Source of the DNA: Rhizocola hellebori
Lineage (GTDB): Bacteria; Actinomycetota; Actinomycetes; Mycobacteriales; Micromonosporaceae
Reading direction: 5' to 3'
DNA length: 64,000 nucleotides
Assembly (NCBI RefSeq): GCF_016862955.1
Contig: NZ_BONY01000014.1
Location: forward strand, 113,920 to 177,919
The position numbers and the translations under genes are program-made. A model generated the notes under the pieces. The model saw only the letters and a program-made list of their open reading frames with translations, made no database searches and was not told where the DNA came from. Shown here piece after piece: positions 8,538 to 16,496 of this stretch (positions are counted from its first letter, which is position 1; each line of letters starts with the position of its first letter).

Positions 8538-11000
8538 TTAGCCCCTTGCGGATAGGCGGCGGCGGGGCAGGATGGGGCGGACCACGCGGCGCATGGCCAG
8601 GCTGGCGTCTGAGGTCCTTCGGGACAGTTTCAGACCTAGCGATGTGGCGCGTGAACGCCAGCGGTAGACCACCGAGGGCGGCAGGAGAACGGCGACCAGG
8701 CGGACCCAGCGACCGGCCTGCGCGGCCAGGGCTTTGCGCACATCGGCTACCGCGCCCATGAGGCCGGTGGCGGCGATCGGGTGCTGCGAATAGCGAGCCC
8801 GTTCCTCGGCGTGGCCCAGCTGGCGGGTTACCCCGGCGGTGGCAGTGTCGAGGCCTTGTTCCCTGACCAGCCTTTCCGCTGTTGTTCGAGGGGTTTCCGC
8901 GGCGTCGATGATGAGCCGATAGTCGACCATGGTGTCGATGAGCTCGTCCCAGGCGGCATGTGCCTGGCTGCGGGCCGCATCGCTGTTCTCGGTGTCGACG
9001 ATGGCCATTGTGTTCTCAGGCCCGCCCGCGACAGCAGCGACCGCTGTGGCCGTAGCCAGCTGGGTTCGCCGTCGGCGCAGGGATTGACGCCGGATGGCTG
9101 GCATGATCAGCAGGATCAGCAGCAGCCCGGCACCGCCCAGGGACCACCAAACCCAAGGCGGGGTTGGGGTCTGGCTGGAGCTACCGTCGGTGCCGCACTC
9201 CGGGCAGTCGTCGTTGCCGGGGAGGAACTTGTCGTCACCGGGCTCCGTGGTGCTGCCCGGGTTGGCGGTGGCGGGGGCGCCGGTGGACGGGTTTTCCGGG
9301 GGAGCATCCACGTTCGGGGCCCAGGACGAGTTGACCGCTCCGGCGATGGAAGCGCTTGGGGTGGCGTCGAACGGCACCCACCCGAAGCCTTCGAAGTAGA
9401 CCTCTGTCCACGCATGCAGGTTGCGGTTGGTCAGGACGTAGTTGCCGCCGGTGTAGTTGCTGCCCTTGGTGAAGCCGAACGCCACCCGTGACGGGATCTT
9501 CGCGACCCGCAGCATCCAGGCCAGCGCCGCAGCGTACTGCTGGCAGAACCCGCGCTTCACGTCGAGGAAGTTCAGGATCTTCTGGCCGTTGGTGCCCTCG
9601 GGAACCGTCAGGTCGTAGGCGAACCCGTTCTTCTGCGAGAAGTAGTCGTAAAGCGCCCGCACCTGGTCGTAGACGGTGGGTTTGCCGTCGATGAGACCGT
9701 TGACCAGCTCCTGGATCTCTTCCAGCTCCACCGGCACCCGGGTCATGTTGCGCTGGATCTGGTTGCTGAGGGGCAGCGGCCGGGCCGTGCGCAGCGCGTC
9801 CGGACTGTATTCGGCGTGAATGAAGTCGAACTCGAACTTCTTGCCGGCCGAGCGTGACCGCACCGAGTAGAAGATCTGCTGGTCGACGTCGTAGTTCCAA
9901 GAAGCGTCAAGGCCCTTGGTGGAGATGGGCGACGCGTAGACCGGAACCATCGGCATGTCGAAGTTCTTGGAAACCTCGACCTTGGCGTTGTAGCGCTGGC
10001 CGGTGATGCCGGGGCCTTGCAGCCCAATGGGCCGGGGCAGATCGGCGCCAACCGGTTTCCCGCTCGGGGCACGGTTGCGGAATCCGTCGAGCTGGATGTC
10101 GTCGGCCGTGCCGAAGCGCATGTAGAACGGCGAAGGGTCGTTGGTGGTGACCTTGACCAGCTCGCGGATCTGGGTCTGGTTCAGCTCGCCGTAAAGGTGG
10201 GCGAAGAGGTTCACCGAGCCGCTACCCGGGCCTTGCCCGTTGCCTGGGCCGCCTGACCCGGTTGCGCCGAAGCGGGAGAAGAAGCCCTCGGTCATGCCCG
10301 GGATGACGATCGGCAGCAGCACGGCCACCACGACGCCGAAGGCGGCGAGCCGCCGGCCGGCGGCAGCCAGCGGGGACGGCTCCCAAAGGTCGACGCCCCG
10401 GCCTTCGCCGGTGAACCGGCGACCGAACCGGCGCACCTTGTCGACGTTGTCGGTCACGAGCAGCCACAGGAAACCGATCGCCCCGATCACGAACGGGATG
10501 GGGGAGACCGACTCGGCGTAGACCGCCACCGGTACCGAATAGATGGCAAGCATCGGCAACCCGGCGAGGGCGGGGCGGCGGACACCGACCGCGAACACGT
10601 CGACCAGGATGGCGACCAGGCCGATCCCGAGGATCGTGATGAACAGCAGGCTGTCGATGTCGGGGGCGGGCACGTACGCGGTGCGCACGTCCTCACCGGA
10701 CTTGAGGAACAGCTCCCGGAAGTGGGAGAACGTCGACGGGGTCGGGATCAGGCCGAGGATTCCGGTGCCCTGACTGAAGAACATGGTCACGGCGACGAGC
10801 AGGCCACCGACCATGGCGAGCACCTGTGTCCAAAGCCGCCCCCGCAGCGACCGGGCGCCCCAGGCGGCCCCCGAGATCAGGGCGATCGTGATGATCGCCT
10901 GGAAGAGCCAGTTCAGGCTGTCGAAGATCATCGAGATCGGGGCCGCGGCGAGCAGCGTCGCCGCGGCGGCGACCAGCGTCAGGTGGCGCTTGGAGGTCAT
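8538..11000 (-). CDS. TgpA-type membrane transglutaminase
   Basis: The 820-residue protein has an N-terminal block of about six or seven membrane segments (residues ~10-230), an extracytoplasmic transglutaminase-like domain, a Pro/Thr/Gly linker, one more membrane segment (WVWWSLGGAGLLLILLI) and a cytoplasmic C-terminal domain. The catalytic triad is complete: Cys486 in GFCQQY, His529 in LHAWTEV and Asp545 in PFDATP. It probably cross-links or processes peptides or proteins at the outer membrane face; the substrate is unknown. The ATG at 11000 overlaps the DUF58 stop by 4 nt and is preferred to an upstream start inside DUF58. It belongs to the moxR-DUF58-tgpA operon. Confidence 0.88.
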   Translation of the reverse strand: MTSKRHLTLVAAAATLLAAAPISMIFDSLNWLFQAIITIALISGAAWGARSLRGRLWTQVLAMVGGLLVAVTMFFSQGTGILGLIPTPSTFSHFRELFLKSGEDVRTAYVPAPDIDSLLFITILGIGLVAILVDVFAVGVRRPALAGLPMLAIYSVPVAVYAESVSPIPFVIGAIGFLWLLVTDNVDKVRRFGRRFTGEGRGVDLWEPSPLAAAGRRLAAFGVVVAVLLPIVIPGMTEGFFSRFGATGSGGPGNGQGPGSGSVNLFAHLYGELNQTQIRELVKVTTNDPSPFYMRFGTADDIQLDGFRNRAPSGKPVGADLPRPIGLQGPGITGQRYNAKVEVSKNFDMPMVPVYASPISTKGLDASWNYDVDQQIFYSVRSRSAGKKFEFDFIHAEYSPDALRTARPLPLSNQIQRNMTRVPVELEEIQELVNGLIDGKPTVYDQVRALYDYFSQKNGFAYDLTVPEGTNGQKILNFLDVKRGFCQQYAAALAWMLRVAKIPSRVAFGFTKGSNYTGGNYVLTNRNLHAWTEVYFEGFGWVPFDATPSASIAGAVNSSWAPNVDAPPENPSTGAPATANPGSTTEPGDDKFLPGNDDCPECGTDGSSSQTPTPPWVWWSLGGAGLLLILLIMPAIRRQSLRRRRTQLATATAVAAVAGGPENTMAIVDTENSDAARSQAHAAWDELIDTMVDYRLIIDAAETPRTTAERLVREQGLDTATAGVTRQLGHAEERARYSQHPIAATGLMGAVADVRKALAAQAGRWVRLVAVLLPPSVVYRWRSRATSLGLKLSRRTSDASLAMRRVVRPILPRRRLSARG

Positions 11001-12298
11001 CGGCCGCCTCCCATGGTGACGGTTTCGGCCATGGCGGCCCGCAGCGCGAAGCCTTGCTGGCCCCGCGCGGCCTGGGGCCACAGGGATGGAAGCAGATCGC
11101 CGTGCTTGACCCCCACCACGCGCCAGCCGCTTTGCAGCAGGCCCAGTGCGGCGGCCGCATGCTCACGCTCGGCCTCGGCTTTCACCTCGGCCGGTACGTT
11201 GAGCCAGCTCTGCGAATCCATGAGGAAGGCGATGCAGGTGGTGCCACTGGTGCGCAGCGCCGCCAGCTGTGCCGCCTCGGCGGTCGAAAGCAGGCCGAGC
11301 ACCGCGATGATCAGCCCGCCGTCGGCGCGACGGCGAACCTGCTCGATCAGGGTGGTGATGTCGCCTCGGCCGGAGGCCTTGACCTCCGCCAGGTGGTCGA
11401 GCAGCAGCCCGTCGCCGGTGCTCTCGTTGGCGTCCAGGTCGGCACCGGCCTCGGTGACCAGCCGCAACCTGTACCCGGCCTGTCGCAAGTGGACAGAGAC
11501 GCTGGCCGCGGCCGCGACCGCCCACTCGAACGAGCCGGTGGGGCCCTCGCCGCGGTGCGCGAAAGCGCGCGTGTCGAGCAGGACGGTGGCCCGGCTTTCC
11601 CACGGCTGCTCCTCGCGGCGCACCATCAGCTCGCCCACCCGAGCGGTCGACCGCCAGTGCACGCGCCGCAGATCGTCACCGCGCCGGTATTCGCGGGTGG
11701 CCGCATCGTCCTCGCCGTGCACCGCCACCGAGCGGGCGCGGCTGTCGCCCGTGCCGGCGTATTCGCCGGCGAGGCGGACCAGCTGCAGCGGGGTCACCTG
11801 CGGGATCACGGTGAGCCTGTCGGAGCTGGGGAAGGATCGGGTCATCTCGCACAGCCCGAACGGATCGGTCATCCGCAGCGTGAGCGGGCCGACCTGGTAG
11901 CGCCCGCGCAGCTCGGCCCGGACCGTGTACGCGACCGATGAGGCCTGCTGCGACCCGAGCCGGTCAAGCACCAGCCGGGGACGGCTGCCGAGCGCATACG
12001 GCAGCTTGTCCTCCAGCAGCAGCGTGCCGGTGGGCAGGCGGGACATGTTCTGCAGGCGCAGCAGCACCCGCGCGTTGCCGCCCGCCTGAACCCGGTAGGG
12101 GTCAAGGCTGCGCGTGCACGCCAGCCTGTACCGGGAACGCCCGACATAGAAGGCGGCGAGCAAGGGCAACGCCAGCAAAAGCACGGCCACCCGAAGCAGG
12201 TCCTTCTCGCCGAGGATCAGCGCCGAGAAGACGGCGGCGAGCCCGGCGGCGAGGAAGCTGCGCCCCCGCGTCGTCAGCCCGCGCAATGCCTCACGCAT
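10997..12298 (-). CDS. DUF58 domain protein
   Basis: The 433-residue protein has two N-terminal membrane segments (residues ~12-50), a beta-rich middle and the DUF58 signature REYRRGDDLRRVHWRSTAR near residue 205, which leads into a von Willebrand factor A-like region (ATVLLDTRAF). DUF58 proteins almost always sit beside a MoxR ATPase and are thought to be substrates or partners in metal-dependent or chaperone-type assembly. It starts 11 nt after moxR and overlaps tgpA by 4 nt, so the three proteins are made together. Confidence 0.85.
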   Translation of the reverse strand: MREALRGLTTRGRSFLAAGLAAVFSALILGEKDLLRVAVLLLALPLLAAFYVGRSRYRLACTRSLDPYRVQAGGNARVLLRLQNMSRLPTGTLLLEDKLPYALGSRPRLVLDRLGSQQASSVAYTVRAELRGRYQVGPLTLRMTDPFGLCEMTRSFPSSDRLTVIPQVTPLQLVRLAGEYAGTGDSRARSVAVHGEDDAATREYRRGDDLRRVHWRSTARVGELMVRREEQPWESRATVLLDTRAFAHRGEGPTGSFEWAVAAAASVSVHLRQAGYRLRLVTEAGADLDANESTGDGLLLDHLAEVKASGRGDITTLIEQVRRRADGGLIIAVLGLLSTAEAAQLAALRTSGTTCIAFLMDSQSWLNVPAEVKAEAEREHAAAALGLLQSGWRVVGVKHGDLLPSLWPQAARGQQGFALRAAMAETVTMGGGR

Positions 12299-12309
12299 AG
12301 GTCACACGC

Positions 12310-13359
<1,050 letters not shown>

Positions 13360-13529
13360 GCCCGCCTCCCTAGTTTTCGTCATGCGTTCGGCGACAGAAC
13401 GCGCTACCCCTATCCAGAGGTTGCACCTTGGTCAGTTTCTCGTTCCCTTGGAGTCTTCCCCAGCGCTCTCAGTTCCGGCAATGCACCAGCGGCGTGGAAT
13501 GGGAAGTGACGCTGTCTGAGCGCACGAGG

Positions 13530-13535
13530 TACTAT
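13530..13535 (+). promoter_or_regulatory. -10 box (TACTAT) of the leuS leader transcript
   Basis: TACTAT lies 6 nt before the leader-peptide ATG at 13542, so the message probably begins at that ATG. A weak -35-like GTGACG is at 13506-13511 with an 18-bp spacer. Confidence 0.55.
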
Positions 13536-13541
13536 GCGGAC

Positions 13542-13580
13542 ATGGCTCAGGGCTTCCTGCTCCTTAGTGAGCCGTGCTGA
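13542..13580 (+). CDS. Leucine leader peptide of leuS
   Basis: A 12-codon frame encodes MAQGFLLLSEPC with three consecutive leucine codons (ctg ctc ctt) at positions 6-8. The stop TGA lies inside the left arm of the following hairpin. This is the standard layout of ribosome-mediated attenuation: slow translation at the Leu codons, caused by low charged tRNA-Leu, changes the downstream RNA fold. Leader peptides before leuS have been predicted in Streptomyces by comparative genomics. Translation is probably leaderless, given the -10 box 6 nt upstream. Confidence 0.8.
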   Translation: MAQGFLLLSEPC

Positions 13581-13622
13581 CGCGATCCGACGCGTGAGCA
13601 CGGCAACCCCTTCTGCGTTCGC
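13571..13622 (+). promoter_or_regulatory. leuS attenuator: pause hairpin and alternative antiterminator
   Basis: Bases 13571-13584 and 13591-13604 form a 14-bp stem with one G-G mismatch and a 6-nt loop. A ribosome stalled on the Leu codons would cover the left arm. The freed right arm, bases 13594-13603, can then pair with 13613-13622 (nine of ten positions, three as G-U) around a 9-nt loop. That pairing uses the central part of the terminator stem and so excludes it. The three structures are mutually exclusive in the classical order. Confidence 0.75.
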
Positions 13623-13637
13623 ACAAGGGGATTTTTT
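13607..13637 (+). terminator. leuS: Attenuator terminator before leuS
   Basis: CCCCTT (13607-13612) pairs with AAGGGG (13625-13630), one C-C mismatch follows, and TGC pairs with GCA around a GTTC loop. Six T residues at 13632-13637 follow directly. A hairpin plus T-run of this quality is rare in such GC-rich DNA, and it lies only 30 bp before the leuS start. Confidence 0.85.
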
Positions 13638-13667
13638 ATGCCTTCTCTCAGACAAAGGATAAGAATC

Positions 13668-16496
13668 ATGAACGAGCAGGTAGACACCCCGAAGTTCCGC
13701 TACAACGCGGCGCTGGCCTGCAAGATCGAGGCTCAATGGCAGGACTATTGGCAGGAGCATGGCACCTTCCACGCTCCCAATCCGGTCGGTGACCTGGCCG
13801 ATCCCAAGCACCCGCGCTCGGGCGCGCCGAAGCAGTTTGTGTTGGACATGTTCCCCTACCCCTCCGGATCGGGCCTGCACGTAGGTCACCCCCTGGGGTT
13901 TATTGGGACCGATGTCTTCGCGCGGTTCCAGCGTATGGCGGGCTTTAACGTTCTGCACACCATGGGCTTCGACGCCTTCGGGCTGCCGGCCGAGCAATAC
14001 GCTGTTCAGACCGGAACCCACCCAAGAACAACGACCGAAGAGAATATTTTGCGGTACCGGGCACAGCTGCGCATGCTGGGCCTGGGTCACGACGACCGGC
14101 GTTCGGTGGCGACCATCGATGTCGACTATTACCGGTGGACACAATGGATCTTCCTGCAGATCTTCAACTCGTGGTTTGATCCGTCGGTCAACAAGGCCCG
14201 CCCGATCGCCGAGCTGGAGGCCCAGCTGGCCCACCTGCCGGCCGCGGAGCGCAACAAGATAGTCGACGAACATCGGCTGGCCTATATCTCCGAGGCCCCG
14301 GTCAACTGGTGCCCGGGTCTGGGGACGGTACTGGCCAATGAGGAGATCACCGCCGACGGCCGAAGCGAACGCGGCAACTTCCCGGTGTTCAAGCGCAACC
14401 TGAAGCAGTGGATGATGCGCATCACCGCGTACGCCGACCGGCTGATCGACGATCTGGACGACGTGCAGTGGCCCGAGCCGATCAAGCTGATGCAGCGCAA
14501 CTGGATCGGCCGCTCCACCGGCGCCTTCATCGACTTCGCCGTGGGCGAGGAGTCAGACCAGGACCTCACCCGTCGGCCCGCCAACATCGCGGAGCCTCCA
14601 AGGGAGAGCTCCAAGTCTGCAATAAAGGTCTTCACCACCCGGCCCGACACCGTTTACGGGGCCACCTACATGGTGCTGGCGCCCGAGCACGAACTGGTCG
14701 ACAAGCTGGTTCCGGCCGGGTGGCCTGCTGGTACCCACGGAAAATGGACGACGGGTCACAGCAGCCCGGCTGAAGCGGTTGCGGCGTATAGGCTGTTCAC
14801 GGCGAGCAAGTCCGAAGTGGAGCGTCAGGCCGACGCCAAGGAGAAGACAGGCGTCTTCATCGGCGCCTACGCCACCAACCCGGCCAACGGGGCGCAGATC
14901 CCCATCTTCATCGCCGACTACGTGCTGGCCGGCTACGGCACGGGTGCGATCATGGCCGTCCCGGGTCAGGACGAACGCGACTGGGAGTTCGCCGAGATCT
15001 TCGAGCTGCCCATCATCCGCACCGTTGAGCCACCCGCGGGCTGGGAAGGCAAGGCGTTCACCGGCGAAGGCCCGGCCATCAACTCCGGCATGCTGGATGG
15101 CCTGGGCGTGGCCGAGGCCAAGGCGAAAATCATCGACTGGCTGGAGTCGGCGAAGAGTGGCGAGGGGGCCGTCACCTATCGTCTGCGCGACTGGCTGTTC
15201 AGCCGCCAGCGCTACTGGGGTGAGCCGTTCCCGATCGTCTACGACGAGTCCGGCCGCGCGATCGCGCTGCCCGACTCGATGCTGCCGGTCGAGCTGCCCG
15301 AGGTGGCCGACTTCTCGCCCAAGACCTTCGCCGATGACGACGCCGGCTCGTCGCCGGAGACGCCGCTGTCACGCGCCACCGAATGGGTCCACGTGACGCT
15401 GGACCTGGGCGACGGGCCTCGCCAGTACACGCGCGAGACCAATGTGATGCCGCAGTGGGCGGGCTCGTGCTGGTACCAGATGCGATACGCGGATCCGTCC
15501 AATGACAAGGCGTTCATCGATCCCGCCAACGAGGCCTACTGGGTCGGGCCGCGCGAGGGCCAGCAGTCCGGCGGTGTTGACCTGTACGTCGGCGGCGTCG
15601 AGCATGCCGTGCTGCACCTGCTGTATGCCCGCTTCTGGCACAAAATCCTGTTCGACCTGGGCTACGTCTCCTCGTTCGAGCCCTACCACCGACTGTTCAA
15701 CCAGGGTTACATCCAGGCCTACGCCTACACCGACGAGCGCGGGGCCTACGTTCCCGCCGAGGAGGTCGTGGAGGAGCAGCCCGGCGTGTATGTCTGGAAT
15801 GGACAGAAGGTCGACCGCGAGTACGGCAAGATGGGTAAGTCGCTGCGCAACGTCGTCACTCCCGACGAGATGTGTGAGCGCTACGGCGCCGACACGTTCC
15901 GCGTCTACGAGATGTCGATGGGCCCGCTGGAGGTCTCCCGCCCCTGGGAGACCCGCGCAGTCGTTGGCGCGCAGCGCTTCCTGCAGCGGGTGTGGCGCGC
16001 CATCGTCGACGAGACCACCGGTGCGGCAACCGTCGTGGACACCCCGGCCGACGACGCGACCCGGCGGGCGCTGCACAAGGCGATCGCCGGAATCCGCGAG
16101 GACATGTTCGGCCTGCGGTTCAACACGGCCATCGCCAAACTGATCGAGCTGACCAACGCGCTGACCAAGCTGCCCGCCACCCCCCGCGAGGTGGCCGAAC
16201 CGCTGGTGGTCATGCTGTCCCCGCTGGCCCCGCACATCGCCGAGGAGCTGTGGCGCAAACTGGGCCACGACGAAACGGTGACCTACCAAGACTTCCCGGT
16301 AGCCGACCCGGCCCTGCTGGTCGAGGAGACAGTCACCTATCCGGTACAGGTCAACGGAAAAGTCCGCGCCCGGGTCTCCGTCGCCGCCGACGCCGACGAG
16401 GAAACGGTGCGCACGGCAGCCCTGGCCGAGGTGAACGTCGCCAACCCCAAGAAGGTCATCGTCATCCCCGGCAAGCTAGTCTCCGTAGTAGCGTAA
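13668..16496 (+). CDS. leuS: Leucyl-tRNA synthetase
   Basis: The 942-residue class I synthetase charges tRNA-Leu with leucine. The HIGH-like motif is HVGH at residues 71-74 and the KMSKS-like motif is KMGKS at 721-725. The CP1 editing domain lies between them, with the [19 protein letters not shown] region near residue 425, and a C-terminal anticodon-binding domain follows. Length is as expected for the bacterial enzyme. ATG 13668 is chosen because AAAGGA at 13654-13659 precedes it by 8 nt; an in-frame ATG at 13638 lies against the terminator T-run and has no binding site. Expression is probably tuned by leucine supply through the upstream attenuator. Confidence 0.95.

Follow-up and report, generated by a model that had tools for sequence, protein, structure and literature searches.

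A conserved leuS leader of Actinobacteria and its probable role as a leucine-sensing attenuator in Rhizocola hellebori

Organization of the leuS leader

The window, a stretch of 64,000 nucleotides, was taken from a genome of 10.77 Mb in 207 contigs. The gene at positions 13668-16496 (+) was identified as leuS, encoding leucine--tRNA ligase, by its match to TIGR00396 (884.9 bits against a cut-off of 548.4), and among the best 80 named loci (out of at least 593) the N-terminal part of the protein was closest to that of Catellatospora (80-81%) and next to those of Hamadaea and Micromonospora, which makes Micromonosporaceae the most likely family of the genome. The most likely start codon of leuS is the ATG at 13668, preceded by AAAGGA (13654-13659, +), a likely Shine-Dalgarno sequence predicted from the reading of the sequence alone; an alternative ATG at 13638 is in frame but lies directly behind the T run described below. 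A divergent neighbour cluster at 8538-13383 (-) was observed to contain a MoxR-type AAA_3 ATPase, a DUF58 protein and a TgpA_N/transglutaminase-like protein.

Upstream of leuS, on the same (+) strand, a -10 box TACTAT (13530-13535) is followed after a gap of 6 nt by the ATG (13542) of a leader ORF (13542-13580) of 12 codons and a stop, MAQGFLLLSEPC*, in which the three leucine codons CTG CTC CTT are found in succession at 13557-13565. The box, its distance to the ATG and the 12-residue leader with three successive leucine codons had all been reported in a preliminary description of this DNA and were read from the sequence again here. The ORF is predicted to be leaderless from its sequence, from the conservation of such leaders and from its likeness to leuL2 of Streptomyces lividans. 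A weak -35-like sequence, GTGACG (13506-13511, +), is located 18 nt upstream of the -10 box. The leader stop codon is overlapped by a hairpin, P1 (13571-13604, +; 13571-13584 with 13591-13604), which had been described as a pause hairpin of 14 bp; the hairpin itself is present, and its 14 positions hold 13 bp and one G.G mismatch. A terminator hairpin, T (13607-13630, +), begins 2 nt past P1 and consists of the stem 13607-13612/13625-13630 with inner pairs 13614-13616/13621-13623, followed by the T6 tract (13632-13637, +) that the earlier account had also recorded. A consensus scan of 13380-13700 called neither a promoter nor a terminator; the promoter was missed because its -35 is weak, and the terminator because the rule allows only loops of 3-8 and the loop of T is longer.

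The RNA from 13542 to 13638 folded at -49.1 kcal/mol (z -5.78), and 0 of 200 shuffles were equally good; against shuffles, P1 alone had a z of -6.39 and T alone a z of -4.09. P1 and T abut without overlap and can be present in one fold, so the two are not mutually exclusive, contrary to what the preliminary description had proposed. In a search of the window against Rfam 15, no family (T-box, leucine leader or other) reached its gathering threshold, and the only match below threshold was to PyrR (21.7 bits against 54, E 0.85).

Conservation, distribution and covariation

LeuRS was found in 61 of 61 genomes (that of the window and 60 relatives), and the leuS upstream regions of 50 (the same genome and 49 of the 60 relatives) were examined with an element pattern that included no promoter criterion: two Leu codons in tandem, a GCCG stem with the matching CGGC, and a T run. 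The pattern was present in 43 of the 50 regions and absent in 7, and in 43/43 of the elements picked in this way an in-frame start followed TAnnnT at a distance of 5-8 nt. In a set of 80 loci from named genomes, selected by LeuRS alone as the best of at least 593, the element was found by pattern at 49, 48 of these 49 with the -10 (TAnnnT) at the 5-8 nt spacing, and was missing by pattern at 31. Among the 31 were three Lentzea, two Kibdelosporangium and four Actinomycetospora loci, Nakamurella, and all seven loci labelled Acidimicrobiia, Acidimicrobiales, Acidimicrobiaceae or Ilumatobacter.

At E <= 0.01, a covariance model of the element (R1) had matches in 171 of the 394 class genomes. Twenty genomes were listed without a match, all of them from one family (f8) of the same order, and a further 203 match-less genomes were unlisted; the 20 listed genomes suggest that f8 has lost the leuS element or never had it. 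Among the matches listed, 70 hits were fetched non-randomly, 30 as the best-scoring and 40 for family spread or as second hits. Of these, 64 sit 22-301 nt upstream of the LeuRS alignment start on the same strand, one (L076) is at a contig end, and five precede genes for acetolactate synthase (L104, L106), citramalate synthase (L108, L110) or a threonine ammonia-lyase-like protein (L109), assigned by their top family scores, which are mostly under the full-length cut-offs because the gene parts are truncated. Since R1 contains the -10 columns, spacing counts in elements derived from it are biased toward a -10, and the 43/43 and 48/49 sets provide the unbiased counts; these bear out the placement of the leader for leaderless translation claimed at the outset.

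Pairing was assessed in an alignment of 100 elements (A3), in which 99.2% of the P1/T cells were paired and 8 of 14 pairs had changed on both sides, 4 of 8 in helix 1 (P1) and 4 of 6 in helix 2 (T); as A3 was fitted to a model carrying the P1/T structure, these pair counts lean toward that structure. For each of five covariation measures, 0 of 500 shuffles matched the observed value. In an alignment of 35 sequences made by MAFFT without structure (A1), two-sided changes were found in 4 of the 14 predicted pairs. The fifth pair of P1 is U-A in 38 elements, C-G in 57 and U-G in 4, with 36 of the 38 U-A pairs in the set made up of the window's genome and its relatives and 52 of the 57 C-G pairs in the class set. 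P1 and T are selected helices. The linker between them is 2 nt in 80 of 97 elements and 1-4 nt in 97 of 97. Alignment of relatives had been suggested as a check in the preliminary description, and it showed that P1 and T covary and that 95 of 96 leaders have tandem Leu codons, but gave no co-evolution of the antiterminator considered below.

A TGYCC-like motif directly behind the T run (13638-13642 in the window) was common among the elements. Its pairing with the T 3' arm, by eye striking in two elements (L012, L016), was rejected, as the element's own pairs reached -9.34 against -9.56 for cross pairs and -9.58 for shuffled ones (96 elements). A hairpin pause tied to a Y|G step at constant distance behind P1 was likewise discarded: the step occurs at offset 10 in 60 of 97 elements, but also at 14 (53) and at 12 (43).

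Control codons and sister leaders

Control codons were tallied over 96 leaders, with L037 left out. The last Leu codon was CTT in 84, CTC in 11, TTG in 1 and CTG in 0; the adjoining leuS parts of 97 loci (n = 1746 Leu codons) had CTG 1502 times, CTC 167, TTG 61, CTT 9 and CTA 7. The first nucleotide of the last Leu codon was located exactly 8 nt upstream of P1 in 90 of the 96 leaders. The leader stop was mainly found at two positions, as a TGA inside P1 (offset +7) in 69 of 96 and as a TAG just before P1 (offset -2) in 19 of 96, from which it follows that the frame and the Leu codons are kept rather than the peptide tail; the SEPC tail of the leader probably follows from P1 and not from the peptide. 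Sequence and comparison together establish the leader with its control codons, the leaderless spacing of the -10, and selection on P1 and T.

Side hits of the leuS-element model led to leaders at ilvB and cimA. In the genome of the window, the ilvB leader (L230, G000:C13) consists of CAAGCT, 6 nt, an ATG opening MSRFTPAGRVLI*, then a stem and a terminator. The reading frame ends in GTA CTT ATT TGA, so that Val, Leu and Ile are each specified by a rare codon and the three immediately precede the stop; the gene behind it matched TIGR00118 at 672.1 bits (cut-off 538.35), and GTACTTATY-like leader ends were seen in several relatives. Leaders of ilvB with terminators are known in Actinobacteria (PMC1262725, in excerpt), and ilvB1 attenuation has been described in Mycobacterium tuberculosis (PMC13236596, in excerpt). 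The cimA leader of the same genome (L217:1349-1467, G000:C66) reads VMSFVLIIGT and a stop, with ATT ATT for the two isoleucines, and precedes a gene matching TIGR00977 at 504.5 bits (cut-off 450); by eye a stem and a terminator follow, separated by a linker of 1-2 nt, and the -10 departs from [CT]AnnnT. The genome has a second cimA-like gene (L222), which had no such leader. By pattern, a cimA element was present in 33 of the 39 cimA regions processed, and 27 of the 33 had an in-frame start at 5-8 nt from a preceding [CT]AnnnT. The 33 leaders contain 50 ATT and 18 ATC codons; in the gene parts behind them isoleucine is encoded by 6 ATT, 261 ATC and 2 ATA. Searches of the open-access literature found no paper on a cimA leader. 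At the locus with the threonine ammonia-lyase-like gene (L109, G281:C738), a leader VTSNEMAIT with an ATT codon and a stop was observed, followed by a stem and a terminator.

The genome of the window gave 64 tRNA matches, of which the 11 long ones were examined; these included tRNA-Leu with the anticodons TAG, CAA, CAG, GAG and TAA, one each, the rest being Ser, Tyr and one unassigned. The tRNA with a GAG anticodon would decode both CTC and CTT, which would leave CTT in this genome to a single tRNA-Leu(GAG) gene. The isoacceptor alone was rejected as the cause of the codon choice, as CTT exceeds CTC by 84 to 11 although tRNA-Leu(GAG) would serve both, and ATT is favoured at cimA although one tRNA decodes both ATT and ATC. 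The choice of control codons is better explained by rarity or slow decoding, and GTA at ilvB shows that they need not end in U. In the Salmonella leu attenuator, a change of the three rare CUA control codons to CUG lowered sensitivity (PMC1183508, in excerpt).

Antiterminator tests and proposed mechanism

An alternative antiterminator (13594-13622, +), formed by 13594-13603 with 13613-13622, had been proposed for the window, and it was not supported. By hand count 9 of the 10 pairs are possible, three of them G.U, and the best duplex in the window between the P1 3' side and the T 5' half was -11.2 kcal/mol. The segment 13584-13625 folded at -9.3 kcal/mol (z -0.10), with 81 of 200 shuffles folding as well, and once the T 3' arm was added to the segment, T was the fold obtained. 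Across 97 elements (A3 minus L030, L032 and L034), the P1 3' side and T 5' half of the same element paired at -7.83 kcal/mol, against -8.26 for cross pairs and -9.24 for shuffled ones; as positive controls in the same duplex test, the arms of P1 and the arms of T beat 2000 of 2000 permutations. In a mutual-information scan of the 97 elements, P1/T pairs filled places 1-5 and 7 of the top 12, and no antiterminator column pair appeared in the top couplings. On the three tests, pairing of the P1 3' side with the T 5' half was rejected as a conserved trait; pairing of invariant segments with each other, or purely kinetic trapping, could escape them.

When a ribosome was placed on the last Leu codon in the model, T was part of the minimum free energy structure of 92 of 97 elements, the same as with no ribosome, so the fold alone predicts no switch; with the ribosome at the stop codon the count was 85 of 97. 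Two hallmarks of a classical attenuator were found, the control-codon leader peptide (tandem Leu, 95 of 96 leaders) and an intrinsic terminator before the gene (stem, T6 and covariation), and a terminator-excluding antiterminator was found neither in the window folds nor in the 97 elements. Since no antiterminator is selected and T persists in most of the modelled folds, a classical attenuator is not demonstrated.

The region is the actinobacterial leuS leader element, and we consider it probable that it works as a leucine-sensing transcription attenuator of leuS, likely raising synthetase output when charged leucine is short. The leaders of ilvB and cimA, with codons for the amino acids that their genes serve, were counted in favour of an attenuator, and the absence of the element from 7 of 50 and 31 of 80 leuS regions (the 80 being the best of at least 593) was counted against it. 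As far as the sequence suggests, transcription in this genome would start at or next to the leader ATG, a ribosome would load on the 5' end and translate the leader, and the response would be to leucine. While Leu-tRNA is plentiful, the ribosome would reach the stop codon and depart, P1 and T would fold side by side and transcription would end before leuS. When Leu-tRNA(GAG) is short, the ribosome would wait on the last, rare CTT. From the dimensions of the ribosome, CTT in the A site means coverage to about 13575, and the footprint would thus take in about the first five nucleotides of P1; P1 masked in this way presumably could not close fully, T would be less effective and leuS would be transcribed. 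Because no conserved antiterminator was found, a terminator aided by the abutting P1 is the most likely form of the switch, and next ranks a kinetic trap, weak and not conserved, set by the P1 3' arm once it is freed.

The arrangement as first drawn, a trp-type attenuator in which stalling frees the 3' arm of P1 to pair with 13613-13622 and exclude T, is unlikely. The pairing can form in the window, and antiterminators were drawn in two Streptomyces by Seliverstov et al. (PMC1262725, in excerpt), but in the window it is no better than in shuffles, across the 97 elements an element's own two segments pair more weakly than crossed or shuffled ones, and the top couplings hold no such column pair. 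We give a distinctly smaller chance to a plain intrinsic terminator behind a leucine-blind short ORF, which would either damp leuS constitutively or sense free ribosomes through the leaderless start. By itself T is indeed a stable terminator-like hairpin; against this reading, the tandem Leu codons, the frame and the distance from codon to P1 are kept in the 96 leaders as other residues vary, the stop falls at two main places (-2 in 19 and +7 in 69 of 96), and the sister leaders hold codons for other amino acids that match their genes. Least probable of all is a transcription start elsewhere, with a leader that is not leaderless and an incidental TACTAT. The failure of the consensus scan to call a promoter and a weak -35 that is not conserved (nTGACn at 14-20 nt spacing was found in only 6 of 97 elements) would fit such a start, which must then be set against TAnnnT at fixed spacing in 43/43 and 48/49 elements chosen without it and against leuL2 of S. 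lividans, reported as leaderless from RNA-seq (PMC8079986, in excerpt).

Returning to the attenuator with a P1-aided terminator, we tentatively entertain a wider form of it, in which Actinobacteria might share an antiterminator-free branched-chain attenuator: a leaderless mini-ORF with rare codons for the amino acid of its gene (CTT at leuS, GTA CTT ATT at ilvB, ATT ATT at cimA) and a ribosome-gated P1 that has to fold next to the abutting terminator if termination is to occur. The isoleucine switch on citramalate synthase at cimA would then be undescribed. The cysteine-responsive leaderless short ORFs of mycobacteria, reportedly described by Canestrari and colleagues in 2020, resemble the element, by title alone, as leaderless short ORFs with a run of a single amino acid that control the gene behind, and differ in that the amino acid is cysteine. 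The enterobacterial leu operon is a classical antiterminator system. Its leader has rare Leu control codons like those of the window, CUA there and CTT here (PMC1183508, in excerpt), but serves a biosynthetic operon, whereas the window has a synthetase gene, a predicted leaderless start and abutting hairpins. Actinobacterial ilvB leaders, one of which is found in the window's genome, likewise combine a short ORF of branched-chain codons with a terminator (PMC1262725, in excerpt), but carry Val, Leu and Ile codons and precede a different gene. Attenuators of leuS, noted in the preliminary description as predicted in some Streptomyces, are in print as predictions for S. avermitilis and S. coelicolor (Seliverstov et al. 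2005; PMC1262725, in excerpt) and share with the window a Leu-codon leader ORF and a terminator before leuS; the antiterminator drawn there from two species is unsupported here across 97 elements.

On sequence likeness, the element of the window is of the leuL2 type, known in kind from Streptomyces. In the reannotation of S. lividans TK24, leuL2 (MRAVRLLLSEPR, 12 residues) is listed as leaderless, with a hairpin and then a U stretch behind it (PMC8079986, in excerpt); the window likewise has a 12-residue leader with three Leu, the same LLLSEP core and the same position before leuS, and its element is therefore not new in kind. The tandem-Leu short ORF (MAQGFLLLSEPC*) before leuS (TIGR00396) and the hairpin and U-tract terminator between leader and gene, in an alignable structure, were both found here. 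The leuS leader of Streptomyces is one form of a widespread RNA element that covaries, is unmatched in Rfam 15 and now has a searchable model; new details are the CTT bias of the last Leu codon and the ilvB (Val-Leu-Ile) and cimA (Ile-Ile) leaders of the same genome. The extreme preference for CTT, which a single tRNA-Leu(GAG) gene would serve, and the parallel one for ATT at cimA make the rare-control-codon idea directly testable outside enterobacteria, and the question is narrowed to the step by which ribosome stalling would overcome the terminator with no conserved antiterminator. The window differs from leuL2 in the N-terminal residues of its leader and in the fifth pair of P1, which is U-A in the window and mostly C-G beyond its nearer relatives. 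The Streptomyces loci with the leuL2 peptide align with the element of the window under one model, and the peptide was exact in 4 of 5 named Streptomyces loci and one residue off in the fifth.
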